A stretch of DNA of 64,000 nucleotides from Symbiodinium sp. CCMP2592 (taxonomy: Eukaryota; Sar; Dinophyceae; Suessiales; Symbiodiniaceae). Each line of letters begins with the position of its first letter. The stretch's first letter is position 1. The DNA is taken from contig CAJNDT010003802.1 in the NCBI GenBank assembly GCA_905221615.1, positions 275,960 through 339,959 on the forward strand, written 5' to 3'. Under the pieces are notes generated by a model that was given only the letters and a program-made list of their open reading frames with translations, ran no database searches and was not told the DNA's origin. This document shows, piece after piece, positions 7,853 to 63,918 of the stretch. The translations under genes were made by a program, and so were the position numbers.

Positions 7853-7955
7853 GGGAGTTTCCGAAAATGTGGGGAAATCTATTTTGGGGGCTCTTGTAAT
7901 ACGGATCCTATTGTTTAGGGTACTATATTAGGGTCCCCTATTTTCGGAAACTCCC
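7853..7955 (+). mobile_element. Foldback element, family 1 (103 bp)
   Basis: Terminal inverted repeats GGGAGTTTCCGAAAAT (left) and ATTTTCGGAAACTCCC (right) are exact complements over 16 bases. The interior carries the family block GGATCC...TTTAGGGTACTATATT...GGGTCCCCTATTTTC, also found at 39640 and 52014 and, inverted, at 23324. No ORF. The flanks share only ATG, so any target duplication has decayed. Confidence 0.85.
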
Positions 7956-8427
7956 TATGTGGGCTCAGACTCAGACTCGGATGTTATCCCAAAGAGCTTC
8001 CGAGGTTACGTCGGCTACTCCTCCATGGTCATGGCGCAGCGATTACGCGAACTCGGAGGGCGTGGCAGCGTGCAGTGCCGAGATGTGCCCAGTGAAGCAA
8101 ATGTTTCGTCGCAGAAAGGGCAATAAAGTATCCAGCCTACGGAGGAGTAGCTGAAGATGTCTAGTGTCGAGCAAGGTCACCACATGCGAAGTGGATGCGG
8201 CCAATGCGTACATCGCCCGTGGTGGTCTTAGTAGGCTTCATAGTAAGACTTTCGCAACGGTACCCCCTTGTGTAGTAACGGCTTCTCGTACGCCTTGTAG
8301 TAACGCTGGAAGAGGCCCACTGAGCCACAGGATTGGAGTGCAGGAGAATGTAGGCACAAGAGGGCATTGAGCCTGGACAGGAAGGATTCCAGCTTCCAGG
8401 ATTCTGCAGCATGCTTCTGCGATCCAG

Positions 8428-9131
8428 GTGGTGTGCTGCAGTTTGCTGGAGTGGAGGGGGAAGTCCAGGTGCGGGTGGGGTGCTGCTGCCACGTTTTCTG
8501 TCAGGCATGAAGAGAGGGAATTCGGTCATTGGCTTGCAAATTTTATGATTGCCCCTTCAACAAAAGTGCAGATGGGATTCACACGGAAGTGCTGTTGCAC
8601 AGCTGTTCATGCCGCATTGCATTCCAGGTGTGCCTGCGACTGGGTGGCCACTGGGCAGCTGGGCACCATTGACTTCCTGCTCCTGGACACGGGGCAGTTC
8701 GTTTTCGGTGCACTGCCACATGTCGCCCGAAGAGCGACAGCTGCAGGACCATCGGGGCACGATCTACCATGAGGCGCTTGCAGGGCCTGGCCCTGTATGT
8801 GCAGCGCAAGAGATTGTGCCACCTCCTGTCACGAGGACCTTCACGCGGCTGAACCTAGCCTTTCCGAGACGGTCCCGCACCGACTTGTCCATTACTGGCT
8901 CTCGTTTGCCCTATCTTCCTTGTAAGAGTGCTTCTTCATGTCCGACCGAGGCTATCGTTTTTGCAGATAACGTACTGTACCCGGGCGCTCCGCACGAGAC
9001 CCAGGGAATGAGGTTTGAGCTCCTCGCTGGAAAAACGGTGCTGCTGCAAGTCTTGCGCCAGGTTGTTTTTAAATTACATCGACGTCCAGGGCTACGCCAT
9101 AGAAATCCACGAGCTCAAGGCGTGCCCAGCA
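8428..9131 (+). CDS. Possible catechol O-methyltransferase-like gene fragment
   Basis: Around 8956-8994 one frame reads VFADNVLYPGAP. This resembles the conserved ADNV-x-x-PGAP segment near the C terminus of animal and algal catechol O-methyltransferases, which move a methyl group from S-adenosylmethionine to catechol hydroxyls. Upstream, in another frame, TIDFLLLDTGQF (about 8670-8705) could match the family's acidic metal-binding strand, but the following residues do not fit. A coding-like exon, DVQGYAIEIHELK, ends near 9131 before GGTAAGT, a good splice donor. The pieces lie in different frames and exon borders could not be fixed. The call rests on one short motif and could be wrong. Span limits are approximate. 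Confidence 0.3.
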
Positions 9132-9644
9132 GGGTAAGTCATGGGATTGTTAGAAAAGCTCGGCTGGTGCAGCCTTGCAACCTTGCATTGCGACTGGGCC
9201 CCTCGATCAAAGAGCGATTCACGAACCCTGCTTGTCGTGGCAGATGCAATGCTCGTGAAGTGCAGGAGTTCAAGCGACCTGACCTTGATGACTGGGTTCC
9301 TGCCTCGGTCGGGTAGTTCTCAGCCCGTTGTAGATTCCCGTCGAGTGCCGTCAGGTGGTGATTTGCAAGCCACCCCCTCCCGAGAAGCGAAAGGAAATGC
9401 CAACGTCTCAGGCATGGGCAGTTCTCTGAACTAGGGTGGCTTGAGTCTTCTCTATGCCCTCCTTCTCAGAAGAGGCAGGATTTACTTCTGGGGATCCCAA
9501 ACAGGACCTTAACTTAGGAGGCTGCTCATGGGATGACTGGATCCGTGATGTCAGCCGAAACAAGGCCGGAGTCAACTCCACCGGAGCTGCGACGTCTGTC
9601 CGCCGAGGCCGACTCTCTTCCTGCAGTTCTTTTGAAGCCTTCGT

Positions 9645-9745
9645 CTTACCTTTGCTTAGTAGGGAATGGAGGAATGGGGTACAATATGGTACAATTATGA
9701 CTACTATTACTACCATTCTTCCATTCCCTACTTACCAAAGGTAAG
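9645..9745. mobile_element. Foldback element, family 3, with TCGT target duplication (101 bp)
   Basis: The arms start CTTACCTTTGCTTAGTAGGG and end with the complement CCCTACTTACCAAAGGTAAG. Pairing continues inward over GAATGG and most of the next 12 bases. The element is flanked by TCGT at 9641-9644 and TCGT at 9746-9749, a 4-bp target-site duplication. The right edge ends GGTAAG, which with the duplicated T gives GTAAGT, a splice-donor consensus. Related copies lie at 29508 and 32853. Confidence 0.9.
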
Positions 9746-9970
9746 TCGTGCGGTCAAGCGTACATGCTATGTGCTGCCATGCATGCATATGCAACTTTTC
9801 CAGGCGATTCTTCCTTGCTTTTCCCTTTTCTATTGCGATTGTGTGCCTTCTCCTTTTGTATGTAGATGTATATATGTACATATTTCATGTACAACCCGTT
9901 CGATGATGTACACAATACTATAAGTAGTGAGGATACGTCTTAACCCCAACCTGGAGAGCCTTTAATGCTT

Positions 9971-10042
9971 ACAAAAGGCTTTAGTTCAAGATCGTGCAGT
10001 GAGATACTGACAAAAGGCTTTAGTTCAAGATCGTGCAGTGAG
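9971..10042. repeat. Tandem duplication, period 39 bp
   Basis: The sequence starting ACAAAAGGCTTTAGTTCAAG and running to GTGCAGTGAG occurs twice, the second copy beginning 39 bases after the first. The two are identical over about 33 bases, indicating a recent local duplication. Confidence 0.9.
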
Positions 10043-10119
10043 CGCCGCGAGGTGGATGCTATCTCATGGCGCAGTCAAGAGCAGTCCGGATCTCGGAAGG
10101 AAGCTCATAGGAGGCCAGG

Positions 10120-10195
10120 TTATATATATATATATACTTAGAATAGGGTTTTGGGGCCCACTCTACTATAATTATGATAACAGTATCGGTAATGC
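10120..10195. repeat. TA microsatellite beside an element-like AT-rich block
   Basis: A (TA)n tract at 10120-10137 is followed by TAGGGTTTTGGGGCCCA and TATAATTATGATAA. The same combination recurs at 56893-56930 (TAGGGTTTTTGGGCCCA...CATAATTATAATAA), so this is probably a remnant of another short dispersed element. Its ends could not be defined here. Confidence 0.5.
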
Positions 10196-11190
10196 ATGAC
10201 CTAACAAATACAAATCGAGTTTCATGCGGGTTTCGTGACCCGGTCTTAGTGGATTGAATGGGTTTATGGGGCTTGGCTCGGATCAAGAGAAATCTGGCAT
10301 CCATACGGCCAGCTCAACCGCCTTAAAAGACCCTTTCGGGGCTTTGCAGTCAATTTAATGGTTGCTACCTGTGTTACCTGCATGTCTTTCGTCCATCTTG
10401 ATGTGCTCATGAAGGGGGCTGTAAGTACTGCACAGCTCGGCTTTCGGCTTGCTCTGCGCCTTTGTTTGACATTCGGCGGGTTTCCCACATCCCGAAGCTA
10501 TGTTCCGCACACTCTTGGTCATGTGGGTGCTGTTTTGGCACACGCTGTAAGGCAAAAGCTACTGATGGCGTTTCCGGAGCTATACACTCAACACTTTTCG
10601 TGATCTTGGAGTGGCAAGTCGGCATCCTGTATATTGACCGGTTACATGTGTATATGGGTGCATACCTACATATTTACATGGTGTAAGCAGACACGTGTTG
10701 TGTCTGCAGTTTGGCAAGCGCCATGCAGGCATTTGTTTAACTTGATGCAATGCAAGCGAAGAAGTTCCGCCATTCTTGATGTATGCATCCCTTAACCCAA
10801 AGCCTATGCGGATGTGTCCCTGAAGGATGGTTGACTGGGTGTCATTCCAGCCTGGCGCTCAGTGTAAACGCAGAGCTCAGTAGGCGTCGCTGATTTGTCC
10901 TGGAGACAATGCTAAAACCTGTGTTCCGGATTCCTCTTAGAGGATGGAGAAGGCGCTCAAACAACAACACCCAAGCCTCAAACCCTAAACCCTGAACCGC
11001 TAAACCCCAACACCCAAATGCCAAACCCCAAACGCTAAGTCGTATACCTCGAACCCCGGAAAGAGCCCCAAACCCAACTGAGGGATCGCTTGAAGCCCGT
11101 GTTCTATGCCTGGAAAGAGGAGCGAGGGCTCTGAGCCAGAAGGTTCCGGCTGCCGAAGTGAGACATCCCCCCTACAGAGTCAGTATACCA
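10196..11190. other. No recognisable gene; decayed CCCTAAA tract
   Basis: No domain was recognised in any frame. Telomere-like CCCTAAACCC/CCAAACCC sequence occupies about 10980-11075. Confidence 0.45.
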
Positions 11191-11194
11191 CAAT

Positions 11195-11450
11195 GTACTG
11201 TATATATATATATATCTATATCTATATCTATATCTATATCTATATCTATATCTATATCTATATCTATATCTATATCTATAACTATATCTATATCTATATC
11301 TATATCTATATCTCTATATATCTATATATCTATATATCTATATATCTATATATCTATATATCTATATATCTATATATCTATATATCTATATATCTATATA
11401 TCTATATATCTATATATCTATATCTATATATCTATATCTATATCTATATC

Positions 11451-11485
<35 letters not shown>
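11195..11485. repeat. AT-rich microsatellite: (TATATC)n, (ATATATCT)n and (TA)n
   Basis: The tract starts as (TA)n, changes to a hexamer of TATATC type until about 11310, then an octamer of ATATATCT type, then returns to (TA)n by 11450-11485. Such AT blocks melt easily and may form cruciforms. The Ile/Tyr-rich ORFs that cover it are artefacts. Confidence 0.95.
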
Positions 11486-13120
11486 GTCCTAGGCCCTAAA
11501 GTGAAACTAAACACGCAGCATGCTCCGCTTCTGCTCCCAACACTCATGTTAACGATTTCTCAGTCGGCAGCGCTTGAACCCAAAGTAGCTGGCCAGAATC
11601 CGACCGGAAGAGATGCACGCGCTGTGCAAAAAGAGCTGAGTCTTGATTCGCCACTGCCAGAAAGTTAGTTAGTAAGGTATATAGTTATGTCGCTACCATC
11701 ATCGAGAATCGAAAGACTAATAACAGCAAAGCAGGAGGAAGCCTGGAAGTAGCAATGAAGATCATGCGAGCAGGCATGAAGTTGAAGCCCGGGCGGATTC
11801 AGATTCCTAGAGATGTCCGTCAGCTTCTGTTGACTAAATCCATGCAGGTGGGAGGCTCTTGGCTGTACTGAACCAAGGGGGCAGGCTAGCCGTCCCTGCC
11901 TCCACCTGGAATCAGAGTTAGGGTCAAGCCCCACTGCAAGCTCTTATCCCGGAGCACGAGGCCGCAAACCCTAAACCCCAAACCCCTGAACCCCAAACCC
12001 CAAACCCTACATGCGTAGCTGGCATAGCCTGCTTTGACCGGAAGTCCGGCCAGGCTCTCCCCAGAAGCTTTGCGTCTCGGAAGGCCCGGCACTCAACCGG
12101 CGCGGACGTCCTTGCTTCCATCTTCTGGCTGGCATGCTGTAATTGATATTGTGGGAGATCAAAACACGGCGAGATCAAGAGATCATGTCTAGACACTCTC
12201 GCATGATCATCTTTGCCAAACCAGTGAACTGTTACATTGCTTTGTGAGGTCTGGCTCTGTCAGCCTCTGCCGCCACTGCTGACGGTCCACATGAAGAGGT
12301 GCCAACGGGAAGCCTCTCAACATCAGATCACGGTCAACGACTTGCTGGACGGATTGTCCTGCGTGTTTCTCAACACATAAGCCTAAGACGAAGCCTGAAA
12401 TTGACAGATTCCGGCGCAGCGGCGCCAAGTTTGAGAAGAACGGCAAGCATGTGACGCTGCCGTGGGCCCAGCCATGACGGGGCAGTTTTCCAACGTGCAT
12501 CGCCAGCTTTCTTGATGACCTTTGGGGATCGACAGGTGTAAATCTCTTCATAGCAGAGTCTTGCGCAGGCCGGCTGTTCTGGATCTCAGCGACTACCTTT
12601 TGACAGAGGATGAAAATCAGCGTCTGCACAGTCGAAATGTTGGAACTGTCAAGTTACAGCAATCTGTCGCCAACGCACTTGCATGTGCGTGGGGGTGTAT
12701 CTGTGGTTCCGAGCTATTAGCGGGACTCCTGGGCGAATCCCAGCCACTGTAAAGTTGACAGAGTCCCGATTCAGCAAAGATGATGATCGTTATGATGCAT
12801 CCTGCCACAAACTCTTCAGATCTTCATGTCAAAGCCGCCGTGAGCATCCAGACTAGTCTCGCGATATTGGGTACGCTCCCAGCGAAGCCTTTCGTGTGCA
12901 GCTAGGAGACATGCGGACGTTTGCGACCTCACCTGGCCTCTGATTGCAAGGAGCATCGTTGCAGGCATGTAGCGTCCCGTAACCCCTCAACCGTTTACCC
13001 TACCGAGTTGATAGTGTCCAGCGGGTTCCCCCCAAACTATGCTCTTTGCAGGAGTTGATCTGCAAGTCGGAGGGAGGCTCGCGGTTCGAGGCACCCGCTG
13101 CTCCTGACAACGACTAACAA
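11486..13120. other. No recognisable gene; interstitial CCCTAAA/CCCCAAA at about 11965-12010
   Basis: About 1.6 kb with no supported gene. The minus-strand ORF at 12207-12629 has no recognised motif. A short telomere-like tract (CCCTAAACCCCAAACCCCTG type) lies at about 11965-12010. Confidence 0.45.
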
Positions 13121-13215
13121 AAAGTAGAAGTGGAAGTGGAGGTGGAAGTAGAAGATATAGTCGTAGGAGTCGTAGTAGTCGTAGTCGTAGTCGTGGTAGT
13201 AGTAGTCGTCGTCAT
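13120..13215. repeat. GGAAGT then CGTAGT triplet-type array
   Basis: A short purine-rich GAAGTGGAGGT stretch passes into CGTAGTAGTCGTAGT repeats like those at 191-600. Apparent Val-rich ORFs across it are not genes. Confidence 0.85.
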
Positions 13216-14560: not shown

Positions 14561-14724
14561 AATGCGGGGCGACGGGATTTGTAGCGCTTCTACTGCAAGG
14601 GTGCCTGTGCATAGAGCGCAGTGTTACGTTCCCTGCATAAGATGTCTACGAAACCTTAGCTACTTGCAACAGAGCTTGCCGAATTGCAAGTCGTATGTCA
14701 GGAGACGTCTGCCAAAATGGCTCT

Positions 14725-14740
14725 GCCATTTTGGCTCAAG
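14725..14740 (+). promoter_or_regulatory. Dinoflagellate spliced-leader (DinoSL) relict
   Basis: GCCATTTTGGCTCAAG is an exact 16-base match to the 3' portion of the 22-nt dinoflagellate spliced leader (known consensus: CCGTA, then this sequence). The leader's own AG at positions 5-6 is the usual re-splicing site, so relicts are commonly truncated to just this portion. By chance a given 16-mer would be expected about 3 times in 100,000 such windows. It lies 68 bases before the ATG at 14809, where an mRNA-derived leader would be. A reverse-complement stretch GCCAAAATGG (14711-14720) just upstream makes a short hairpin with it. Confidence 0.85.
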
Positions 14741-15303: not shown

Positions 15304-15806
15304 ATGCAGCTACATGTCTGAAAAAGACTGCTCCAATGAATATTCCGAGAGTAGCGTGTGTTCACTCAGATTCGATTCTTTCATGTGTCGCGGGCAAGAG
15401 CCGCGCTGAGAACAAGAATGAGAAAGGGCAGAATTGGAAATTGCACATATGTCACATATGGCACAAATGGGCCCCACGCTGCAGGCCCAAAGAGCTCAGG
15501 GTCTCCATGCGTCGGGCTCTGAGATGGCCATCTTTGGGCCTTCAGATGCCGTGGTCATCTGTAATCGTTCTCATCGTTTTAATTGTCAGCAATTGCCATT
15601 GTTAGTCCAGGCCACAGGCCCGGCCATGTGGACAAGTGGCCTCCCCCCAGGCCAAATGCGGCGGCACAGCGAGGTGGGAGCCTTAAGCAACAACACCAGC
15701 AGCAACAATAACCGGCCCAGGGCTGGGTCCTCGGTAAGACATCTTGGGCACCTCGCATCTTCAAGCTTTCAAGCGACGTTGAAGATCAGTTTTTTCGCGT
15801 TGTGCC

Positions 15807-22802: not shown

Positions 22803-22902
22803 GGGTGGCTGTCAAAATTATGGTCCCTGTTTGGGTCCTCAGTATACTACGGCACCTAATATTAGGGCACCCAAAACGGGACCATAATTCTGACAACTAC
22901 CC
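22803..22902. mobile_element. Foldback element, family 2, with ATAT target duplication (100 bp)
   Basis: The left arm begins GGGTGGCTGTCAAAATTATG and the right arm ends with its near complement (CATAATTCTGACAACTACCC). Pairing extends into GGTCCC/GGGACC and TTTTGGGT/ACCCAAAA. It is flanked by ATAT at 22799-22802 and 22903-22906. It sits in an AT microsatellite. The sister copy is at 52675. Confidence 0.9.
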
Positions 22903-23323: not shown

Positions 23324-23432
23324 GGGAGTTTCCGAACATAGGGGACCCTTTTATAGTACCCTAAATAGAAGGATCCTTCTTGTAAGGACTCCAAGGGATA
23401 AGGTACCCCCCTGATTTTCGGAAAAAGCCCCC
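23324..23432 (-). mobile_element. Foldback element, family 1, inverted orientation, AGCT target duplication (109 bp)
   Basis: Ends are GGGAGTTTCCGAACATAGGG (left) and TGATTTTCGGAAAAAGCCCC (right). The interior carries GTACCCTAAATAGAAGGATCC, the reverse complement of the family 1 core, so this copy is inserted opposite to those at 7853, 39640 and 52014. AGCT flanks both sides (23320-23323 and 23433-23436). Confidence 0.85.
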
Positions 23433-29507: not shown

Positions 29508-29598
29508 CTTACCTTTGGTTAGTAGGGAATGGAAGAATGGTAGGAATAGAAGTTATAATTCTACCCCATGTCTGCATTCCCCACTAACCAAAGGCAAG
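29508..29598. mobile_element. Foldback element, family 3, with GAAG target duplication (91 bp)
   Basis: The left end CTTACCTTTGGTTAGTAGGG matches the family. The right end is CCCCACTAACCAAAGGCAAG, complementary except one or two bases. It is flanked by GAAG at 29504-29507 and 29599-29602. The interior is about 35 bases of AT-rich sequence. Confidence 0.9.
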
Positions 29599-32852: not shown

Positions 32853-32965
32853 CTGTCTGGTTCTTAGTAGGGAATGGGGGAACGGGTTATGGAGACTATT
32901 ATTGGGAATTGTAGTAGGGACTGCTATGGGATCCGTTCCCCCATTCCCTACTAAGCGCCAGACAG
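32853..32965. mobile_element. Foldback element, family 3, near-perfect arms, TTGC target duplication (113 bp)
   Basis: The 33-base arms begin CTGTCTGGTTCTTAGTAGGG and end with the complement. They differ at two positions only, near the TTC/CGC site. The element is flanked by TTGC at 32849-32852 and 32966-32969. Its first bases differ from the 9645 and 29508 copies (CTGTCTGG instead of CTTACCTTTGG), but the core TTAGTAGGGAATGG is shared. Near-identical arms imply recent movement or arm homogenisation. Confidence 0.9.
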
Positions 32966-39639: not shown

Positions 39640-39743
39640 GGGAGTTTCCGAAGATTGGGGGTTACCATATTTCTGGGGTGCTTATAGTGAGGATCCCACT
39701 GTTCAGGGTGCTATATTCGGGTCGCCTATTTTCGGAAAACTCC
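39640..39743 (+). mobile_element. Foldback element, family 1, with CTGTTT flanks (104 bp)
   Basis: The left end is GGGAGTTTCCGAAGATTGGG and the right end CGCCTATTTTCGGAAAACTCC. The interior GAGGATCCCACTGTTCAGGG fits the family core. CTGTTT is at 39634-39639 and again at 39743-39748, a 5-6 bp target duplication depending on where the element is taken to end. Confidence 0.85.
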
Positions 39744-41740
39744 TGTTTCACCTTGGGATTTCAGATAGAGGGTTCAGGGTTTTAATGATTGGGGTATAGG
39801 ATTGAAGACGTCTGTGCTTTTTACGATGGTCTTCTCGATTTCCTTGTTAGATATACCTATCGACGTACAGAAAGTCGCTATTCCTGGTGTGAGCGTAACA
39901 TTTTCGGGATCCTATCATGTTGAAGTTTTCTACAGGGGCTTCGATCAGGGAGCCGTGTACACGAACTCCACATCGTGAGTTCATGTTACGACCCACCCGG
40001 AGCCCTGTTTTCAACCACTGGTACACTCCGAGACCACAGCCCAAATACGAGGTATCAAAGTACTACGCCGAACTGCGGTCACGAGAAGATTACATGGCCC
40101 GACGCCAGGCGGGCTGTCCGAACGTAAGGCACAACCGCCGTACTTGGGGTGAAAGGCTTTTGATACCTATAGTTAACCTTGTTTGAAAATACTATACCAT
40201 GGGATTCTTGTGTCACGGTTCTACGGATCTGTGAACGTGGGTTCTTTGAAACGTGCCGCCGTGAATACGTGCTGTGCAGGTAATCTTCATAACTGTACAG
40301 TTCCTGCAATCTATGGCACCTGTCTTTCTATCCTCGAGTCCCACCCCTTGCTCGGGAGGATGCATCCGTGAAGGAGGTACTGCATCCAATGCGTGTTTCG
40401 TAGCCATTGTACTGCTGCTTATTTTATGATGCACTGCCATGTGGTGCAACGTCATGCAATGTCAGGCACAGCAGCGAGACAACACTCAAGGCATGCAAAC
40501 ATGGTATGGACAAAGATCGGTAGATAAACTGCCGGCTATGGCAGATACCAAATCGAAAGACAAGCAGACGACTGATAGCTGCTAGATCCATACATTGACA
40601 GAAACGCAGAGCAAGTAGACTGGCCGAAAGAACTAAACCAACGGGCAGGTGGAGTTGGAGCGGCACACCTTCCGCCTCGTGCAGCAGGTGCGGAGGAGTT
40701 ACTCGCTGCATGTTCGATGAGATGAAATATCCACAGGAGACATCTCGGGGGTTCCCTTCAACTTTCGGGCCTCATGAGAAATGATCCCTATCCGGTCGAT
40801 TAAGCCATACGTTTACCTTCGTTTCCTCAACGTTTGAGATGCAGCTGCAGGCCGTGTCCACGGGCTTGTCGAAAGCAAACGAGGACCGACCGACGCAATG
40901 CCTGTTTCTGACCGCACTCCGTTTCCTTGCGACAGACTGAGCTCTCATGGTTTGCAGAAGAGGTCAAAAAAGAAAAGATGAAAGATCGAGCTGCATCGCT
41001 TACAGGTTGTCAACTTTCCGCTCTGCTGAGATCCTGTTTCTAGCCTCAGGAGCCCTTGGCGAACACAGAAGAGGCTGGGTGGCTTGGGGGATATCATGCT
41101 GCTTGCTTACCTTTCATGCTCGTCTGCGTCGACTCCTCTGCTTCCGCGCGATTCAGAAAGCCTTCGCGCGGGAAGGGTCTTCGCTCGTCTCATGAACCCC
41201 ACTGCAGAAAGTCCAGTGAAGGCTGCGCCGGAAGTTATGGAGAAGGTTCAGTTCCCGCTTCTCGCGTCATCTGCTTCCGAAGTCACCGGCAGCACCTCTG
41301 CAGCAAGAAGTCGTGATGACCAAGAAAGTGTTCTTTGCGAGCTCCATCAGTGCCTGCTACAGTGGTGCTCTTACAGGTAGCATCAAAAGTATCAGCATGA
41401 CGTTTCGTGACTTCTCTGGACGCACTGTTGTAGTGCTCCAGTCGCGTGTCTGTGTCAGGTCCCGCATTGCTGGAGATGTTCCGCTTTAGACGCCTGGTGA
41501 TTGACGACTGCCACCTTATGGCAAGGCCCACGGGGAAGAAAGCCTAGAAGACCCATGTCTAGCGCTTGTAGAAGACTAAGCCTTAAACCTGTAATTCTCC
41601 CGAAACCGCAAACGACAGCCGGACTCGAACCAAGAAACGGCGAGCTCCTCACACCCTTCGGGGTGTAGCCTCGGTGTCCCGCAATGTTGGGGTCCTAAAC
41701 TCCCCCCTCTTGAGGGTACAGGGGGATGTAGGCCCATGGT
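39744..41740. other. No assignable gene
   Basis: A frame across 41084-41380 reads SLRAGRVFARLMNPTAESPV and looks weakly coding, but no family was recognised. Elsewhere short ORFs on both strands overlap. A B-box-like GGTTCGAGTCC (minus strand, about 41622-41632) was examined and not accepted as a tRNA. Confidence 0.35.
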
Positions 41741-42700
41741 TTAGGCTTTAGGTTTTGGGGTTTAGAGAAAGGTTCAGGGTTTAGGCTTTAGGTTTTGGGG
41801 TTTAGAGAAAGGTTCAGGGTTTAGGCTTTAGGTTTTGGGGTTTAGAGAAAGGTTCAGGGTTTAGGCTTTAGGTTTTGGGGTTTAGAGAAAGGTTCAGGGT
41901 TTAGGCTTTAGGTTTTGGGGTTTAGAGAAAGGTTCAGGGTTTAGGCTTTAGGTTTTGGGGTTTAGAGAAAGGTTCAGGGTTTAGGCTTTAGGTTTTGGGG
42001 TTTAGAGAAAGGTTCAGGGTTTAGGCTTTAGGTTTTGGGGTTTAGAGAAAGGTTCAGGGTTTAGGCTTTAGGTTTTGGGGTTTAGAGAAAGGTTCAGGGT
42101 TTAGGCTTTAGGTTTTGGGGTTTAGAGAAAGGTTCAGGGTTTAGGCTTTAGGTTTTGGGGTTTAGAGAAAGGTTCAGGGTTTAGGCTTTAGGTTTTGGGG
42201 TTTAGAGAAGGGTTCAGGGTTTAGGCTTTAGGTTTTGGGGTTTAGAGAAAGGTTCAGGGTTTAGGCTTTAGGTTTTGGGGTTTAGAGAAAGGTTCAGGGT
42301 TTAGGCTTTAGGTTTTGGGGTTTAGAGAAAGGTTCAGGGTTTAGGCTTTAGGTTTTGGGGTTTAGAGAAAGGTTCAGGGTTTAGGCTTTAGGTTTTGGGG
42401 TTTAGAGAAAGGTTCAGGGTTTAGGCTTTAGGTTTTGGGGTTTAGAGAAAGGTTCAGGGTTTAGGCTTTAGGTTTTGGGGTTTAGAGAAAGGTTCAGGGT
42501 TTAGGCTTTAGGTTTTGGGGTTTAGAGAAAGGTTCAGGGTTTAGGCTTTAGGTTTTGGGGTTTAGAGAAAGGTTCAGGGTTTAGGCTTTAGGTTTTGGGG
42601 TTTAGAGAAAGGTTCAGGGTTTAGGCTTTAGGTTTTGGGGTTTAGAGAAAGGTTCAGGGTTTAGGCTTTAGGTTTTGGGGTTTAGAGAAAGGTTCAGGGT
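41741..42700. repeat. 40-bp minisatellite, 24 copies, nearly identical
   Basis: A 40-base unit beginning TTAGGCTTTAGGTTTTGGGG and ending GGTTCAGGGT repeats exactly 24 times over 960 bases. The only difference seen is A to G at 42210. The unit is made of TTTAGGG-like words, so it probably grew out of a telomere-like array. One strand is G-rich and almost free of C (three or fewer per unit). The near identity means very recent expansion or strong homogenisation; assembly collapse could make the true copy number higher. Confidence 0.98.
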
Positions 42701-44710
42701 TTAGGCTTGAGGCTTTAGGGGTTTAGGTGGGGTGCCCACGTCGCATTGCCGCCAGGGCCTTGGGGGAGCTGGTGTCCAGCCGTAGCTCCCACAGTGGTGG
42801 CTTGAGCCAGTACCTGGGCAAGGCCCTCCGGCTCACAATGACGGAGGACCAGGGCGTACTACATTATGCCATAATGTAATTCATTATACCATGTTATACT
42901 CCATTGTCCTATATCTTGCTGAATTACACTAGTCACTAGCTTGTACGGAGTGATGCCTACGAAGATGGGGGGGGGGGGGAGTTGCATTGTCAGATATGCT
43001 ATATGCTATGGTCATGCCAAAGGTGGTTGAACATGATTCTCGCTGCTGTTGATGTGTGACTCCTTCCGCTTAAGGCTTAAGTGCCATAGCCGAAGCCATT
43101 GAGGGTCAGCTGCTCGCTGTGAGGTGGCGCCGCTTTATGCCGTCCATGCCATCGAAGCCCACGCCCGTTGGGGCATCGCTCCCCTGACGCTTCTCGGTAG
43201 TGTGGATTGAGATGTCGGAGGGTGCAGTTGTGATTCGGGTGTCTGTAAGGTCCGTCACTTGCAATGAGGGGGTGTCTGACGACGTGGCGCCGTCGACACC
43301 TCAGCACTCGTGATTCCACCTCCACGGGGCTCTTTCTTATTCGCTCAAGGATGGCTTCCTTGCTGGGGATACAGATCCCTTGGTGCGACCACCTTGAGGC
43401 ATCCGAAGCACGGGCTGCCTTCATCCCCCGAAGCTGGAACTCTTAACCTTGAGCTGTACATCTCGAGCTGCTATTGAAGTGGTGTTGTTCTGCAAACCTG
43501 GCCCAAAGGCTCTTCCTAACTAGAAATTTCTATAGAGGCTTTTGGAGGCTAACTCAGCTGAAGGAAGAGAGGGCCCGCCCGAAAAACAACAAAAAGACAC
43601 ATTTCCAGCTGCCAGCAAACTCGAAGTTGGCGGGGAGCTGACGAAGGATGGCTTGTACCTGCCAGGCCAACCGCTTCCTGGAGAGCCACGCGACAGCGGC
43701 AGAGGACTGTCATAAGCGAAGGGCAACGTTGGCCCTGGAGCGCAGCGACAATGCCGACGGTAAATGTGACTGTTACAATGATGTAAGTGAAGGTGAAGAG
43801 TAAGATGCTGGTTGAGATTGAGGGTAGCATCATGTTCAATACAGTTCATCATCAATTAGCTAAGGTCGTCGTCGTCGTCGTTTCCGTCCCTTGCTGTTTT
43901 GCGAAGGCTTGCGTTGAATGGCAGTCGTTTTGGTTCAAGGGCTCTGCAGCCCAAGCGGTGGCTCTGGTACAGCTGGTCATAGCCTGCTGCCAGAATGCGC
44001 CGCAGCTGCACTACGCCTCTAAACGGCTGCTCTGCGTGGATGTTGGTGCCTCTTTAAGGTTTGGTGGCCTCTCGCGCTCGTTGGGCCAGGGCGTGCCTGC
44101 TCCTGAGCCTGCTTTCTTGCAAGCTTCGCCTTAGCCACGCCTCCGTCCGGCAGGTGGTATTTCAACTCAGACCTCCGGTCTCCTGTCCAGGATCCGCCAC
44201 CTCTTCGTCCCATTTTGTGCCCCCTCGCCTGAACATCAGCTAGTCTCGTCATCTCTTGTCACCCTTGCCCAGGTGTTGGAATCAAGCGCCCATACTGGAA
44301 GGTCTGCTGTAGCTGCCCCTCTGCCTTGCGACCTTCTTCCCGCTCAGACTTGGTTTCCTACGGGGTCCCGTCGTTTGACGCTGTCACCTGTCTTCTGCCT
44401 CGTCTCGGTGGTATCTCTGCATGGCATGGTATGGTCATTGTGTTACATAAACGAGCTCGAACGGATCACTGTCCATTTTTGTGCGTCGACCCTCAACACG
44501 CATTGATGCCTTTGACATGAAGACCCAAAAAGGATAACAGTCACTCAGGCGACGTGCTGCAGGCAACGTCGCCAGACAGGCACGGAAGATTTCCTCTCTC
44601 GACGCTCTGCCCGTTGATAAAGCGCCTGTGGGTTGCAAGGCTGCTCGCACTCCAATGGCCATGGAGGAGCCTTTTATCTGACGCTGAAGTCCACGCTCTG
44701 TTCTGCACAC
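42701..44710. other. No assignable gene
   Basis: A partial minisatellite unit with altered sequence ends at about 42725. A GGGGGGGGGG run lies near 42969 and (GTC)n at 43868-43880. ORFs at 43077-44250 on both strands carry no recognised motif. Confidence 0.4.
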
Positions 44711-46917: not shown

Positions 46918-46955
<38 letters not shown>

Positions 46956-47610: not shown

Positions 47611-48080
47611 AAAGGTGGCTTGAGGACCAAAAGAAGCTCATCAAAAGCTGCAGCTTGGCTTATTTGCTGAGTGGGAAGCACCTCCTGCCTACGGTGCCGT
47701 GAATCTCTCAGCCAAGGAGAGGCAACCTGCTTGAATGGAGACCTCAACTGAAAGGGGCCGTAGAAAAGTAGAGCACTGACATGACACTATTGTTTGCCCC
47801 TTCTCGCAGAAAAATGCCGACCACAGAAGATCTGATGTGAGACCACGTGCGTGCGCATTGGTAAGCTGCCGCGGTTTGAGCAGTACAGAGCACTTCTCCA
47901 CCAGGAGGTGGATCCGTCCGACGAGCCTCGACGAAAGGCGCGACGCGTTCGGCTCCGGTTTGCGGGACGGCACTTGGATGTGACAGAGCCGTGGAGTATC
48001 TTGGGCTCGAGCTGCTCATGTCATGAGGGCTCTTGGGGGAGTTCTGAGTTTCTCATGGAATCGCAAGAGCAAGGGACCCT
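47611..48080. other. Upstream region of the glycosyltransferase ORF
   Basis: A plus-strand frame from about 47851 reads RIGKLPRFEQYRALLHQEVD and is weakly protein-like. It overlaps the next gene in another frame after 48081, so it is either an upstream exon or chance. Confidence 0.3.
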
Positions 48081-52013: not shown

Positions 52014-52121
52014 GTGAGTTTCCGAAAATTAGGGGTACCTTATTTTGGGGTCCTTAGAATACACGTAAGGATCCTACTATTTAGGGTACTATATTCGGGT
52101 CCCCTATTTTCCGAAACTCCC
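52014..52121 (+). mobile_element. Foldback element, family 1 (108 bp)
   Basis: The left end GTGAGTTTCCGAAAATTAGG and right end CCCCTATTTTCCGAAACTCCC pair over about 20 bases. The interior GGATCCTACTATTTAGGGTA and CTATATTCGGGTCCCC is the best-preserved family core. No clear target duplication. The left end reads GTGAG and a TCTCACTAG lies just right of the element, so it could be spliced as an intron. Confidence 0.85.
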
Positions 52122-52674: not shown

Positions 52675-52775
52675 GGGTGGTTGTCAAAATTAGGGTCCCT
52701 TTTTGGGTCCTTACTATAATGCGGCACCGAATAATTCGGGTAACCTAAAAGGGACCCTAATTTTGACAACCACCC
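52675..52775. mobile_element. Foldback element, family 2, perfect arms, ATAT target duplication (101 bp)
   Basis: Counting the flanking ATAT, 33 bases on each side are an exact inverted repeat: left ATATGGGTGGTTGTCAAAAT..., right complement ...TTTTGACAACCACCCATAT. ATAT lies at 52671-52674 and 52776-52779. About 43 bases of loop contain ACTATAATGCGGCACCGAAT, similar to the loop of the 22803 copy (AGTATACTACGGCACCTAAT). Perfect arms point to recent insertion. Confidence 0.95.
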
Positions 52776-53548: not shown

Positions 53549-53630
53549 CCATACTGTTTTGGTGTTCCTTCTTGCAATTAATTCATAAAGGACCCCAAAA
53601 CCCGATTCTAATGATTAAGGCCCCTATATT
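53549..53630. mobile_element. Foldback element, family 5, with ACATGC flanks (82 bp)
   Basis: The right half ends ATTCTAATGATTAAGGCCCCTATATT, shared with the element at 61266-61371 apart from two bases. The inner arms ACTGTTTTGGTGTTCCTT and AAGGACCCCAAAAC pair. The outer left arm is lost. ACATGC is present at 53543-53548 and 53631-53636, a likely target duplication. Confidence 0.65.
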
Positions 53631-54440
53631 ACATGCAAGTCCCAGAGAGGGAGCAAGCCAAAGCTTTGTGCGAGCGAGGTCTACGATCCATAGATTCGTG
53701 TCGGACTCAATCGCTTTGCTCGCTTGAGGTCTCATAGGACCAGCTTGTTCACTATCCTGTGCCAATGCCTCTTATATTCTGAGGTGTCTAGATCAAATCG
53801 GCTACTGCATCGTGGCTGGCAGCACGAGGCCGTGTTCTGCAGTCCTATCGAGATCAACCTCCAAGGTGGTTTTGATGTCGCAAACTGCAGGAGCGAACTT
53901 CAGGAAATGCAGGTCTCCAACAGAGCTGTCCACGTTTGCACATCATTCCACACGTACACACCTCAGACATGTTGAAATAAGAAAGCAGTTTTGTAAACTC
54001 TTCCGTGCTCGCCAGTCAACTGAAGAGAGCCGTTCGCGGACGCTCTCGTGGCATCCTCCACCACTGTAGACTCGAGGAGGACGCTGAAGCTCGTCACCAA
54101 TCAGCTTTGCAAGGGGGCCGCTTCCCCAAATCTGGGATCATTTTCGTTGTAGTAACCCTTATAGTTATAGTAACCCTTATGATTAGCAGTTTTTGTTGCA
54201 ACCCTGATTTAGAGTAGCCCCCATCATTGTAGTTATCCTTCTAATATGTTTAGCCCCTTTTTAATAGAGACATTATGTGATTGTCTGAGAGTAAGAGTAG
54301 CCCCTGCAGTAACGCACGGAGTTCTAGCTTGCGCAGGACGAAGAGGCTCCTCCCCTCGTGGATCCCGAGCAGGCGTTGCGAAAAAGTCGGGAAGACGTGT
54401 GCTACGCAAGGAAAGGGCAGCGAGAAGTGGGGGCTACACA
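53631..54440. other. No recognisable gene
   Basis: ORFs on both strands lack motifs. A repeated AACCCTTATAGTTATAGT-like stretch is at about 54146-54185. Confidence 0.4.
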
Positions 54441-56702: not shown

Positions 56703-56880
56703 GACTGAACCCAAGAGAGCCCGACCCCATCTAGCGACATTCTTCCAATGGGACCGCTGAGCCTGCCTTAAGGTCGACTTGAGCTTGGAGACCAAGCTGT
56801 CGCAACAGCAGGCACCCAAGGAGCCGGGGCGTGAAGAGAGCAAGCAAAGCAGTCCTGCCCGGGCCAGACTCTAGGGGCCT

Positions 56881-56946
56881 TAATAATTAAAGTAGGGTTT
56901 TTGGGCCCATTATACCATAATTATAATAAGGAACCCCAAAATAATG
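56881..56946. repeat. Element-like AT-rich inverted block shared with 10.1 kb
   Basis: TAGGGTTTTTGGGCCCATTA and CATAATTATAATAAGG resemble the block at about 10137-10190. The inner GGGTTTTTGGG and the later ACCCCAAAA are roughly complementary, so this may be another foldback family or a family 5 derivative. Confidence 0.45.
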
Positions 56947-58240: not shown

Positions 58241-58344
58241 TTGTTTGAGGACATGTTGTGCAGTTAGCTTGCCCGGCTGGCGCTGGCGGCGGCAGGATTC
58301 GTGTGGCCTTCGGCCCTGCCGATGTGCATAGGCTCGCAGTGACA

Positions 58345-58440: not shown

Positions 58441-59195
58441 GCCGAGTTGCCGAAGGCTACTGTAAAAGGCTGCAAGGCGACAGAAAAGGTTCCTAGAGTA
58501 CTATAAGCTTGCCACAAGGCTGCAAAAGCTTGCTACAAAGGTAAGTAGTGTAAGGGTACTGCTTGTATGTGTTTACGATAATGCTAGTGTCAGGCTACTA
58601 CACGGGACCCATACGAATACAATAAGCTTCCTGGAAGGGCATTTTGCAGGCGCCCGCTAAGGGAACAGTTTTCCCCTAGTGTACAGGCGACTCCAATAGC
58701 AAGCTTTCTTTGATAATTCAGAAGAAAGTAATGATAAACTAGAAGATAATTCTGCCAATTTGTAGATAAATACACTGTTTACTATTGATGCTAGAATTTG
58801 GGGGGTTTAGGGTTTGGGGTTTGAGGCTGAGGAGGAGCGAGCATTGCTTGATGCACTGATCTCCGAAGCGGAAGTGGCAGGTCTTCGTCAAGCGGCGCTG
58901 CATCAGCGCCATGGTCTCTTTTCCCAAGGCAGGGCATGACTGCTTCTGCTCCTTGTGAGTGCTGCAACAAGCAGACCTCACTTGAGAAGTCTGTGAAGCA
59001 GAGTTGGAGCTTCTGAAGAGCTCCGACAGAAAGGCATGTACTTCCTCGGATTTGGGGTTCGGGGCTTCGATTCTTCCGGTTTCATCTGAGGAGAAGGGCG
59101 GAGGGCTCAGGGTGTGAGGTGTCCCACGACCCTGGGAAAGGAGAATGGAGCCGACTTTCGGGAGAACGATGGCAAGGAGATGAGGCTTTCGCTGT
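58441..59195. other. No recognisable gene
   Basis: A short GGTTTAGGGTTTGGGG trace at about 58800-58822. AAGGCTGCAA words repeat near 58460-58530. No gene was recognised. Confidence 0.4.
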
Positions 59196-59199
59196 TCAT

Positions 59200-59325
59200 G
59201 AGGTTTAGGGTTTAGGGGTTCAGGGGTTTAGGGCTTTAGGGGTTCCAGGGTTTAGGGCTTTAGGGGTTCCAGGGTTTAGGGCTTTAGGGGTTTAGGGGTT
59301 TAGGGTTTAGGGTTCGGGTTTTTGG
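59200..59325. repeat. Telomere-derived array with a 24-bp higher-order unit
   Basis: GTTTAGGGCTTTAGGGGTTC with CAGG, a 24-base unit, occurs about three times (59227-59300), flanked by TTTAGGG units. This resembles an early stage of the kind of process that could have built the 40-bp minisatellite at 41741. Confidence 0.9.
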
Positions 59326-60455
59326 CTAGGCTTGCCTTTCTCTGATGGTTCTCAATGCCGGGTTTGGGTTGGGTATCTCTTTCGAAGTTCCAGTGCTATT
59401 GAGTTAGCCCAAAACTCCTGAAAGATCTGCAACACATTTCACGACTGAGCAAACAAGTATGACCCACATCACCACATGAGCTTTGATGCCTTCTTCCTTT
59501 CAGCCGCTGCCAAGCACAGCAACTCCAGGAGACATGAACATAGATATCATGCGAAGTATAGGCTCGAAACGAGCTGGGCTCTGTACATACGTACATACAT
59601 ACAGTGACAATTTTGACGTACATACATGCATACATACATAGGTACATGCATGCATGCATGATCATGCATGCATGATCAAGCAAGCATGCATGGACGCATG
59701 TATTTACGTATGTATGTATGAATGATCGAACACATTTGTGTTTGTGCAGAGAGAGTTCCACTATGAAGACACGCATACCAACTAGTTAAGCCTGCGCTTC
59801 AGCCTGCAAAACAGCGCATGCCTGCCTCTATATGTATATGTTTATGGCTATGCCCACGTTTCTGTATGTGTACATGTGTATGCCGTATGTGCGTGTGTAT
59901 GTATATGTGTATGTATGTGTATGCGTATAGGCATCTAAACACTCATTGCTTATTTTTGCATATGTACGTGCGACTATTTATTCGGTGGTCGGCAGAGTGT
60001 TATGATTGCAAGGCTGGCATTTGGCTTCATCGGAGAGCTAAACCTTAAACCCTACACTAAACGCAGAACAAGGCCTTTAAACAAAAGACCCACTAAACGC
60101 AGAATCCCTAAACCCCGAAACCGTAGCAGTAAGAGGCGTCATGATGGCAACGAGACTAGCAAGACGAGTGGAATCAGGCATCGCAGTCGAAATCGGGTTC
60201 GCAGGACATGGTCAGTCGCACAGGATCAAAGCAAGAAAGCATGTCGTGACATGCCTGGCAGCACAAATGGCAGAAGAGCCATCATGACAGTACTTGTACG
60301 AATTATGACGACAAGCAATAACAGCAAGAAGACGAATGTCGTAGTACAATGCTACTGTCCAGGTTTTGGTGAGTAATGGTATGCTACAAGTTGGGGGTAA
60401 TAGCAGCTACGCTCCTCCATACAGTCGCACGCTCAAACAGACGATGGTTGCCTGT
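59326..60455. other. No gene; ACAT/GCATGCAT and GTAT tracts
   Basis: ATACGTACATACATACAG and GCATGCATGCATGATCATGC at about 59585-59725; GTATATGTGTATGTATGTG at about 59820-59930; a CCCTAAACCCCGAAACCG trace near 60105. Confidence 0.6.
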
Positions 60456-60605
60456 ACATACGAACATACATGCATGCATACATACGTACACGCATGTGCG
60501 TACATACATACATACATACATACATGCATGCACACATGCACACATGCATGCATGCATACATGCGTACATGCGTACATGCATGCAGACAGACAGACACACT
60601 GACAT
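60456..60605. repeat. (ACAT)n / GCATGCAT microsatellite
   Basis: ACATACATGCATGCATACAT, ACATACATACATACATACAT and CAGACAGACAGACAC runs. Confidence 0.95.
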
Positions 60606-61265
60606 ACTTGTGCCACTTCGTTTGTGCATTTGCTTGCTTGCTGCTGTGTCGGGCCATGGTCTTGCATTATGTTTCCTCGGTCAGGGATCGACCTCCTGAG
60701 AAAGTATTCGCCGCCCTTCAGCGGGACAGAGAGGAGGGTGATGTGCGAGGCTCAGCAACCGCATGGAACAATAGCCCAGCCAAGGGCTTTCTGTTCAAAG
60801 AGCTGCTGCCAAGCTGTGGGATTCGATCCGGTAGTATCGGCATGCCTTGACTGTGCAAGGTTCGATTCTCTCAGACGCTCTCGGCGCTACCAAGAAACTC
60901 AGGCAAAGAGTTGCAGCTTCGATGGCCGCATGTCATCCCCTGAATTCGCTTCACGCTTTGGCTACAAAGATGCTTTGTCCGGTCGTTGTCAGGCCCCTAG
61001 ATTGAGAGCGGCATAGGCGAAGCATGGTTGCTTCGGAATCCCATCCCGACCAGAAGTCATATCCCGCGTGCGAGAGATTGCGACTAGAACAGAACTGCAG
61101 CAGCGAGTATGGCTTGCAAGAAGGGTTATTAACATGTCGTCCTGTGGCAGGCCTTACTCATTTCCCCAAAGTCGTTTACGAAGCCAAGTAGGTCGGAGTG
61201 TATATAAGCCGGGTTTAGGGTTTAGGGAGCCTGGAGCCCACAGAAAGCTCCGGAAGCCCACACCC
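60606..61265. other. No recognisable gene
   Basis: ORFs 60624-61016 and 61068-61268 have no recognised motif. TTTAGGGTTTAGGG at about 61213-61227. Confidence 0.4.
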
Positions 61266-61371
61266 TAATATAGGGGCCGAAGTAGTTGCTAATACTGTTT
61301 TGGGGGTTCCTTACTATAAACATAGTAGAATGGGCGAAAGCCCTATTCTAATCATTAAGGCCCCTATGTTA
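61266..61371. mobile_element. Foldback element, family 5 (106 bp)
   Basis: Ends TAATATAGGGGCC (61266-61278) and GGCCCCTATGTTA (61359-61371) are complementary except one base. Inner sequence ACTGTTTTGGGGGTTCCTTA and the right part ATTCTAATCATTAAGG are shared with the 53549 copy. No clear target duplication. Confidence 0.75.
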
Positions 61372-61464
61372 AGCCCTTCTGGAGGCGAGACGTGGTGGAG
61401 GGAAAAGAGGGGTCGACAAAACAGCGTACTCCTTTAGGTCTTAAGCCCCCATTTCCTTCTAGAT

Positions 61465-61732
61465 GCTTGAACCCTAATTATGAACCGTAAAGGGCCCTAA
61501 GCCGTAATATGGGGGTCGGAAATAACCACTAATAGGTTCTAGATGCTAGCTCAGCTGAGGGAAAGTGCCCTCAACAAACAAGTAAAGCCTGGTGCCCTCA
61601 ACCCTTGAGCCTCAGAGACCTTACACCCTGAACCCTGAAGCAGCATATCCTTGAACCCTAATTCTGAACCGTAAAGGCCCCTACTTGTAAGCCGTAATAT
61701 GGGGGTCGGAAATAACTACTAATAGGTTCTTC
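61465..61732. repeat. Two copies of a family 5-related block
   Basis: CTTGAACCCTAATTATGAAC...GCCGTAATATGGGGGTCGGAAATAACCACTAATAGGTTCT (61467-61540) recurs at 61650-61730 with few changes (CTAATTCTGAACC; AATAACTACT). TAATATGGGGGTCGGAAATA resembles the family 5 left end TAATATAGGGGCCGAAGTAG, so both may be half-elements spread by local duplication. Confidence 0.75.
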
Positions 61733-62300
61733 AGGAGAAGTGTGGTATAGCCCCACATCCCGACTCGAAAAATGCCGTGCTTATGAACCACTTTTCCAGG
61801 CCCGGGTGTGTTCACGTCCATTCTGGCAAAGCTTGCCCGCGAGCGGCGCTGGTGCGAGCCGCTGAATATCCTGGGGAAGTTCGGGTTTGCGATGGGGGTC
61901 CAGGGTACAGGGTTTAGGGTTCGGGCTTGGGTTTAGGGTTCGGGCTTGGGTTTGGGGTGAAGGGGGTTGGCGATGAAGTGTTTAGGTTTCATGGTTTTAA
62001 GGCTTTGGGTTTTGGAATCGGTGGCTTAGCAATTTTGACGACTCCTTGACCCGCGAGAAACAAAGGACGTTTACCAAAAGCAATAATCTACAAGCCCTGG
62101 TATAGTACCCTTCTCGTACCCCTCTAACCTCATTGTACCGGTATGGTACCCTTATAGCACCCTTAAGCCCTACGCCCTAAAGCCCTCCTCTGCGACAGGT
62201 GGGACGTTGATGCGGTCTTTGCAGAAATGTCGGCTCGCAGTATCAGGCCTGAAGTTCGAAAATTTCATCCATTTAGGGCTCAGGGTCTGGTTTCTTGGGG
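61733..62300. other. No gene; GGGTTTAGGGTTCGGGCTTG repeats
   Basis: TTTAGGGTTCGGGCTTGGG occurs twice at 61913-61950. GGTACCC-type words (TAGTACCC, TGGTACCC) recur near 62102-62160. Confidence 0.55.
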
Positions 62301-62317
62301 GTAGCAGTAGTAGTAGC

Positions 62318-62372
<55 letters not shown>

Positions 62373-62373
62373 C

Positions 62374-62427
<54 letters not shown>

Positions 62428-62476
62428 CAGTAGTAGTAGTAGTAGTAGTAGTTGTAGTAGTAGTAGTAGTAGCAGC

Positions 62477-62547
<71 letters not shown>

Positions 62548-62560
62548 TAGTAGTCGTCGT
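62301..62560. repeat. (AGT)n trinucleotide array
   Basis: About 85 AGT units with scattered AGC, TGT and ACT variants. All three frames read as homopolymers (Ser, Val, or stop-rich), and the complementary strand as Leu or Tyr runs. Confidence 0.98.
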
Positions 62561-62919
62561 CGCAGCGTTGTCGTAGTAGGACGAGGGTTGCTAGAAACAG
62601 AAGCAGTGGTAGCCACAATCTTTGTAACGGTATCAGTAAAGGTGCAATCACAGTAATTGCTATGGGAATAGTACCTAGTAAGCGTTATGGCCCGTAGTAG
62701 CAGTAGCAGCTAGAGTCATGACAGTTGGAATAAAAGAAGGCAGAGTAATCGTAGCTACTGGTCGAAAAGTGGCATGAAGCTGTCTCACTAACAGGAACCG
62801 AGGTACTATTGAGAACGGTATTGGTCGTGATAACAATAATAGTAACTTCGGCAGTGATAACTCAACCAGAGAAGATAAATACCTTCGGCTGCTGCCAAGA
62901 ACAAGGGAGTTCCAGAAAA
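62561..62919. other. Upstream of the PPR exons; AATAATAGTAA traces
   Basis: Short AGTAGCAGTAGCAGCTAG and AACAATAATAGTAACTTC traces. No further PPR unit could be read here, although the gene must begin upstream. Confidence 0.4.
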
Positions 62920-63918
62920 GTCCTGTGCGAGGCCAAACCGCATCCATCTGAATGCGGCCATCAACGTCTTTGCGAAAGCGAGGTGGCTTGCTGGGCCTAG
63001 ACCCACTCTTTTCTGGCAAGTCGTTGAGTTGCCATGAGTGGGTTGAGTTTAGGATTTGGCGTGTGTTAGGTTTCGAGTATAGGTAGGGTTTAGGTCGCAG
63101 CACGCCGAGGAGGCCGCAGAAAGCGGAGGAATGGCTGATTTGGATGCAGGACAATGATGTGAAGCCCAACGAGGCACACAGGAGATGAGCTACCCTTGTT
63201 CCCATATGGGAGTTTCCCCTTATAATAAGGGTCCTAAAAATTTAGGGTACCATAGTAAGGTCCTCTATTTTCGGAAACTCCCATATGATTCCCGTAATGC
63301 TTCTCAGCTTGCTGAGTGTGTTCAGGTCAGCTACAACAGCGTCATCAATGCTTGTGCACAAACTGGCTATGTTGAGCGCGCCGAGATGTGGCCAGATTCC
63401 TAGAGCTTGCGGTATGTCTAGCATCAGTGACTGTGCAGCCGCGCACTGGTTGCTGCAGTCCTTGTTCGTTGGAGAGCAAGTCGATATGCTGTCACGAAGG
63501 CTTGGGCGCATGCTGGAAGCTGGCATTCAGGCAAACGAGGCCTGAACTTGTAGCTCGTCACTTAAATGCGAATCTCAGCATCCTGAACGTCCCGCCATGA
63601 GGTCAGCTACAACAGCGTCATCAACGCTTGCGCGCAGAAGGGCCGCGTGTCACGTGCGGCCGCGGGCCGAGCGGCCGGCCCGGGTTAGGGTGTGCCGTGT
63701 GCCATCTGCTGCAATGCCGAGCCGGCAAGGAAGTGTGGCTGGAAAGGATGCTGGCTGCTGGAGTACCGGCCTCGGGTCCAGGTCCATGGAGCCCTGTAAG
63801 AGTATGTCCAAGGAGGGCCGTGGAGAGCTTCGTAAAGTTTCTTTTCACATTGACATGTTTTGACTGTGCGACCGAGGTCAAGACTGATGCCTTCAGCTAC
63901 AACAGCGTCATCAACGCC
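62920..63918 (+). CDS. Pentatricopeptide-repeat (PPR) protein, intron-rich, partial
   Basis: Inferred exons: about 62920-62982, 63110-63173, 63326-63390, 63500-63539, 63602-63658, 63730-63762 and 63877 to about 63918. Joined, they give three complete 35-residue PPR units in frame: IHLNAAINVFAKA...KAEEWLIWMQDNDVKPNE; VSYNSVINACAQTGYVERAE...MLEAGIQANE; VSYNSVINACAQKGRVSRAE...MLAAGVKTDA. FSYNSVINA begins a fourth, and the end of an earlier unit precedes them. All three sum to exactly 35 residues, which supports the borders. Introns are 127 (GT-AG), 152, 109, 62 and 71 (all GC-AG) and 114 bases (GT-AG). PPR proteins bind organelle RNA for editing, cutting or translation; the target cannot be told from this part. 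The gene starts upstream of 62920 and probably continues beyond the window. The 152-base intron holds a foldback element. Confidence 0.85.
63208..63282 (+). mobile_element. Foldback element, family 1, within a PPR intron, ATAT target duplication (75 bp)
   Basis: The left end GGGAGTTTCC and right end GGAAACTCCC are exact complements, extending to CCATAT/ATATGG with the flanks. ATAT is at 63204-63207 and 63283-63286. TTTAGGGTACCATAGTAAGG and TCCTCTATTTTC match a shortened family 1 core. It occupies half of the inferred 152-base GC-AG intron (63174-63325). Confidence 0.85.

Follow-up and report, generated by a model that had tools for sequence, protein, structure and literature searches.

Short foldback elements in the genome of Symbiodinium sp. 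CCMP2592 look like new families of miniature transposons

A 64,000-nucleotide stretch of the genome of the dinoflagellate Symbiodinium sp. CCMP2592 (assembly GCA_905221615.1, contig CAJNDT010003802.1, positions 275,960 to 339,959, forward strand; hereafter the window) carries dispersed, nearly self-complementary elements of about 100 bp that fall into five families. The elements look like new families of miniature transposons. They are listed here by family, in window coordinates:

7853..7955, + strand: Family 1 element, 103 bp, ends GGGAGTTTCC...GGAAACTCCC, without an exact 4-bp flanking repeat
23324..23432, - strand: Family 1 element, inverted, AGCT on both sides
39640..39743, + strand: Family 1 element, GTTT (TGTTT) on both sides
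52014..52121, + strand: Family 1 element, without a 4-bp repeat
63208..63282, + strand: Family 1 element, internally shorter (75 bp), ATAT on both sides
22803..22902, + strand: Family 2 element, ATAT on both sides
52675..52775, + strand: Family 2 element, ATAT on both sides
9645..9745, + strand: Family 3 element, CTTACC...GGTAAG, TCGT on both sides
29508..29598, - strand: Family 3 element, GAAG on both sides
32853..32965, + strand: Family 3 variant with outer ends CTGTCT...AGACAG, TTGC on both sides
1483..1598, no strand assigned: Family 4 foldback, without a 4-bp repeat (CAT/CAT flanks if the ends are taken as CCC...GGG)
53549..53631, + strand: Family 5 element, left end truncated, right end ...CCCCTATATTA
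61266..61371, + strand: Family 5 element, TAATATAGGGGCC...GGCCCCTATGTTA, without a 4-bp duplication
56872..56937, - strand: matched part of an extra Family 5 copy
10138..10195, - strand: extra partial Family 5 copy, right limit approximate

The last two copies are absent from a preliminary description of this sequence. All 13 elements that it did name were found where it placed them and the seven 4-bp repeats that it quoted (TCGT, GAAG, TTGC, AGCT, ATAT, ATAT, and ATAT at 63208) are real, which confirms its observation. An inverted-repeat scan of the window (seeds spanning 45–260 bp) found 14 foldbacks, compared with 0–2 in each of 20 local dinucleotide shuffles, and recovered eight of the 13 named elements. 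The remaining six foldbacks are mostly simple or telomere-like repeats, a class that such shuffles do not preserve. The elements at 23324, 39640, 52014, 53549, and 61266 were missed by the scan; these are decayed or truncated and were identified by family similarity. The copy at 53549 lacks its left end and has a weak fold; the CATGC after its right end is also found before its left edge, possibly by chance.

The copy numbers were determined by searching the whole genome (label G000; 1,098,105,373 bases in 5,383 contigs). The Family 1 end, a 16-mer, has 12,865 and 12,857 exact matches on the two strands (25,722 in total; reversed control 0/1). Because an element has at most two exact ends, these matches correspond to at least about 12,900 Family 1 elements. 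For the Family 3 end, a 24-mer searched with at most one mismatch, there are 5,531 and 5,522 matches (11,053 in total; control 0), which implies no fewer than about 5,500 elements. Neither family is single-copy, and the proposal of thousands of copies genome-wide has held for both. For Family 2, 18–19 paired copies are present in a 294-kb sample, which consists of twenty stretches of contig C1 (200 kb in all, labels L009 to L028, picked for Family 1 ends), three blind 10-kb stretches, and the window. The dinoflagellate spliced leader has 217 and 212 exact matches on the two strands of the genome (reversed control 0), which supports its assignment to a dinoflagellate.

The density of elements is uneven, as the blind stretches are nearly empty. 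In the window and the 200 kb around Family 1 ends (264 kb), 173 foldbacks were found compared with two in one shuffle, although some are telomere-like. Each of the twenty C1 stretches, picked for Family 1 ends, has 3–14 foldbacks, whereas the three blind stretches have no Family 1 end at up to four mismatches and two foldbacks in total. Of the first 100 listed Family 1 matches, all on C1, the first 1.66 Mb holds 83 and the next 2.04 Mb the other 17; no Family 1 end lies in C1 1.66–2.32 Mb among the matches listed. Telomere-like TTTAGGG sequence is itself widespread: two consecutive units match exactly at 19 places in the window and at 150 in the 200 kb of C1.

Median lengths are 102.5, 101, and 96 bp for Families 1, 2, and 3, and 46 of the 50 pairings of Family 1 ends and all 19 of Family 2 span no more than 156 bp (the longest Family 1 pairing is 206 bp). 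Mean identity to the consensus is 92.9% in Family 1 (37 copies), 91.1% in Family 2 (18 copies), and 93.8% in Family 3 (five copies). The consensus cores of Families 1 and 2 align over about 60 bp (score 48, compared with at most 28 in 100 shuffles), and on this alignment the two are regarded as sister families. The preliminary description held that the families share no sequence, which does not apply to this pair. Ten further families, F6 to F15, were probed beyond the window (an F16 probe is essentially F6). Consensus comparison indicated that F6 and F12 are related, while the links of Family 1 with F12, F7 with F11, and F9 with F12 are barely above their shuffles. Family 4 matched none of 15 family consensus sequences. 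Two Family 3 loci have unusual structures. At L011 7491–7645, the stem is broken by about 60 bp with TTTAGGG-like sequence and part of the stem is repeated. At L036 1434–1633, one left end is followed by two right ends; CTAC borders the outer 200-bp pairing at each end, and the flanks of the inner 91-bp pairing lack an exact match.

The self-complementarity of these elements is near-complete and their folding energies are strong, as would be expected if they were not mobile and were palindromes kept for their fold (e.g., cruciforms, boundary elements, or hairpin RNA genes). Compensatory stem changes also exceed expectation in seven of eight families (the eighth has none), with a total of 32 compared with 18.3 expected, a comparison that is uncorrected for the relatedness of copies. 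The excess involves small numbers in F6 (7 observed, 3.3 expected), F10 (3, 1.1), F11 (4, 2.0), and F12 (8, 4.1), with F7 at 1 (0.8 expected), and it could stem from the copies being related or from conversion between arms. In Families 1–3, however, compensatory pairs are near expectation (3 vs 2.5, 6 vs 4.5, and 0 vs 0, respectively), so hairpin selection was rejected as the main explanation. Furthermore, one-sided stem changes far outnumber two-sided ones (165 vs 9 in Family 1), no Rfam family matched the window at gathering thresholds, and the 4-bp duplications and the insertion of copies into other repeats (see below) also weigh against a purely structural role. Taken together, such a role is highly improbable.

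The duplications were examined in the 294-kb sample and eight added 3-kb loci, each picked by a Family 3 end. Flanks matched within copies were compared with right flanks permuted among copies (2,000 shuffles; the lowest attainable p is 0.0005). In Family 1, 25 of 50 pairings have matching 4-bp flanks (5.1 expected, p 0.0005), while 3-bp matches number zero and 5-bp matches one. The corresponding 4-bp counts are 9 of 19 in Family 2 (3.9 expected, p 0.0010) and 8 of 12 in Family 3 (0.7 expected, p 0.0005; the 12 pairings have 11 distinct left ends, and one of the eight matches is the 200-bp outer pairing). None of the three families is enriched at 3 bp or 5 bp. The Family 1 duplications are ATAT (9), ATTT (6), ACAT (3), ACCT (2), and one each of ATAC, TTAT, CTTT, ACAC, and ATGT; those of Family 2 are ATAT (6) and ATGT (3). 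By position, the left flanks of Family 1 have A in 41 of 50, T or C in 42, A or T in 40, and T in 45. Family 1 therefore prefers A-Y-W-T as its target, and Family 2 prefers ATAT or ATGT. In Family 3, whose ends are unlike those of the other two, there is no clear preference, and the duplications occur once each (TTTC, TCAA, TGAT, TATG, CTAC, AGAA, TCGT, and GAAG). ATAT and AGCT are self-complementary, such that a single copy cannot separate a duplication from a longer inverted repeat. This ambiguity is resolved because the Family 1 flanks differ between copies and match within them, and because Family 2 also has ATGT/ATGT.

The 4-bp pattern does not extend to all families. Family 5 has a 4-bp repeat in none of its six paired copies in the sample. 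No 4-bp excess was found for F6, F7, and F9–F12 in the permuted-flank test, nor for Family 5, F8, and F13–F16 in a simpler flank test; for F7, 2-bp matches are slightly above expectation (4 of 8, 1.4 expected). The duplications that the preliminary description attributed to these elements in general are thus present among copies elsewhere for Families 1–3, and the attribution fails for Families 4 and 5.

Joined flanks of Family 1, 2, and 3 copies were compared with the 294-kb sample, which gave 33 junction-crossing alignments from 10 copies; several of these are telomere-like or simple repeats. The Family 2 copy at L021:1403–1466 sits in a copy of the repeat F9, and removal of one ATAT leaves no junction gap in most of the alignments, which involve several relatives, and a gapless alignment throughout with L019. 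With nothing removed, the joined sites of the Family 2 copy at L009:3314–3413 (flanks ATAT/ATGT) and the Family 1 copy at L010:178–279 (ATAT/ACGT) are each four bases longer than their relatives, as a 4-bp duplication predicts. Uninterrupted relatives therefore exist for some copies nested in other repeats, while other sites are less exact or without duplication. Two separate Family 2 copies, L010:4402–4502 and L021:1403–1466, occupy the same internal TATAT site in two different F9 copies. Among 77 joined sites of Family 5, F6, F7, and F9–F12, no convincing empty site was found.

Inverted ends, a fixed 4-bp duplication, and a target preference are characteristic of DNA transposition that proceeds through a 4-bp staggered cut. 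Families 1–3 have terminal inverted repeats, are short and non-coding, and have a duplication of fixed length, and the high dispersed copy number is evident from the 25,722 ends of Family 1 and the 11,053 of Family 3. These features strongly suggest that Families 1–3 are miniature inverted-repeat transposable elements (MITEs), i.e., non-coding DNA transposons of about 100 bp moved in trans. Their small size leaves no room for a transposase gene, and the enzyme must therefore be supplied in trans. A transposase encoded elsewhere, probably of DDE chemistry, would bind the inverted ends, move the element in a cut-and-paste manner, and join it to a 4-bp staggered cut in the target; repair of this cut would leave the 4-bp direct repeat. 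The interpretation given in the preliminary description is thus partly supported.

Several observations weigh against the MITE interpretation. An exact 4-bp repeat is lacking in 25 of 50 Family 1, 10 of 19 Family 2, and 4 of 12 Family 3 pairings, for which decay is assumed. The Family 2 copy at L010:4402–4502 and the Family 1 copy at L015:8807–8909 leave 2–3 surplus bases beyond the four removed, in AT-rich runs. The Family 1 copy at L026:8023–8126 (flanks ATAT/TAAA), lying where a Family 5-like copy ends, has neither extra bases nor a duplication when aligned with one relative, and the Family 3 copy at L011:8673–8763 merely adjoins another repeat. No clean empty site for Family 3 was found with joined flanks in the 294-kb sample. 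In the genome, the joined flanks of the elements at 9645, 29508, 32853, 23324, and 63208 gave self-matches and two one-sided partial matches, and no second, empty copy. No autonomous partner was found in the sample and the eight 3-kb loci, where no two ends separated by more than 260 bp share a 4-bp flank. Finally, profile searches of the genome with PF01609 and PF13359 gave no match although controls matched elsewhere; PF13843 also gave none in the genome, a result that is uninformative since no control genome matched either.

Sola, Ginger, Chapaev, and Academ are superfamilies of DNA transposons with a 4-bp target duplication, and Families 1–3 might belong to one of these; Sola was the group named in the preliminary description. 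The length of the duplication is the sole likeness. No transposase is tied to the ends described here, and the ends of Ginger (TGT..) and Chapaev (CAC..) are unlike GGGAG, GGGTGG, or CTTACC. Membership in Sola or another of these superfamilies is considered unlikely. PiggyBac and Kolobok have a TTAA target duplication; TTAA is not found among the exact duplications of Families 1–3, and membership in these groups was rejected.

A different class may be represented by families with TA at their ends. Family 5 ends in TA...TA, as do F6 and F9–F12, and on their termini these look like a second, TA-targeting class. The genome has 10 matches to DDE_3 from 12 candidates, some in long open frames, and a DDE_3 protein is a possible mobilizer of the TA-ended families only. 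The RVT_2 positive control matched in all 150 candidates scored (5,766 at first look). At C2846:42296–49637, three DDE_3 matches share a strand at intervals of about 3.6 kb, and two of them are in 411-aa open frames. In other collections, the Family 1 end has no exact match in viral_contigs or genome_contigs. The Family 2 end has one in viral_contigs; the Family 3 end has none there and one in a cyanobacterial metagenome-assembled genome. The latter two matches were judged to be chance, as neither locus has a partner end.

Another explanation is that the elements are introners, i.e., transposons turned spliceosomal introns, in which the duplicated bases provide the 5' splice site and the element carries the 3' site. 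In Symbiodinium microadriaticum, published introners carry terminal inverted repeats flanked by 4-bp duplications, and an example spans 115 bp (PMC9860276). Both strands of Family 3 terminate in AG, and its copy at L038 was judged by eye to lie within a Q/E-rich open stretch. By contrast, the ends of Families 1 and 2 are CCC and their duplications (e.g., ATAT, ATTT, and ACAT) never start with GY or GA. These families lack GY/GA...AG splice sites and are therefore not introners of the S. microadriaticum type. In Family 3, four of nine duplications (the eight above and that of the 32853 variant) start with GT, GC, or GA on one strand compared with about 3.1 expected by base counting, such that splice-site supply is possible at some sites. 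None of the joined sites (0 of 36, 0 of 17, and 0 of 7 in Families 1, 2, and 3, respectively) lies in an open reading frame (ORF) above the random 90th percentile of 211 codons; the median ORF is 77, 75, and 73.5 codons, 167 for the single 32853 variant, and 87 for random sites. An introner identity for these elements is accordingly improbable.

The window also contains other features. A spliced-leader relict on the + strand at 14720–14740 retains the last 16 of 21 bases exactly, a possible sign of a reinserted mRNA copy. A 40-bp tandem repeat at 41738–42726 has 24.7 copies with 99% matches and TTTAGG-like units. Among long open frames, the one at 2290–2985 clearly matches ankyrin repeats, that at 15783–16700 matches a GNAT acetyltransferase, and that at 48048–49742 matches a GT61 glycosyltransferase below threshold.

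If Families 1–3 are MITEs, the swarm supplies thousands of natural insertions whose ends are known, and in Families 1 and 2 the target rule can be measured; together these provide a practical handle for finding the transposase. They also provide a handle for testing whether ordinary MITE swarms give rise to introners, which have been proposed as a source of new introns. One candidate, put forward tentatively and with less than even expectation, is a 4-bp-cutting dinoflagellate transposase lineage outside the searched profiles that drives both this non-intronic swarm and the published introners with 4-bp duplications. Under this scenario, introners would be the swarm copies whose ends and target happen to be spliceable, and Family 3, AG-ended on both strands, would be an intermediate.

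Among known systems, MITEs in general resemble Families 1–3 in being short and non-coding, with terminal inverted repeats, a target-site duplication, and high copy number. The duplications of Tourist MITEs are 3 bp long and those of Stowaway MITEs are TA, unlike the 4-bp duplication of these foldbacks of about 100 bp. The Tc1/mariner-derived (Stowaway-like) MITEs are closer to Family 5, F6, and F9–F12, given the TA...TA ends and the DDE_3 domains encoded in the genome, whereas Families 1–3 do not use TA. The likeness to Sola lies solely in the length of the duplication. MITEs are thus a known kind of element, and dinoflagellate introners with short direct repeats have already been published. 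A text search, in which papers are not searchable by sequence, found no paper on the ends described here. Introners with inverted repeats and short direct repeats are described for Amoebophrya (PMC7789003), Prorocentrum (PMC10666404), Suessiales isolates (PMC10522408), and Polarella (as summarized in PMC11453091). Dinoflagellate introners resemble the present families in their inverted repeats, their direct repeats of 3–5 bp or 4 bp, and their occurrence in the same lineage (PMC9860276, PMC7789003, PMC10666404, PMC11453091); the S. microadriaticum example is also similar in size. Its terminal inverted repeats and 4-bp duplications make the class found here less surprising than the preliminary description implied (PMC9860276). 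Compared by description rather than by sequence, Families 1 and 2 differ from the introners in these accounts in that they do not provide splice sites in the manner described for those and that their insertion sites lie outside long ORFs.

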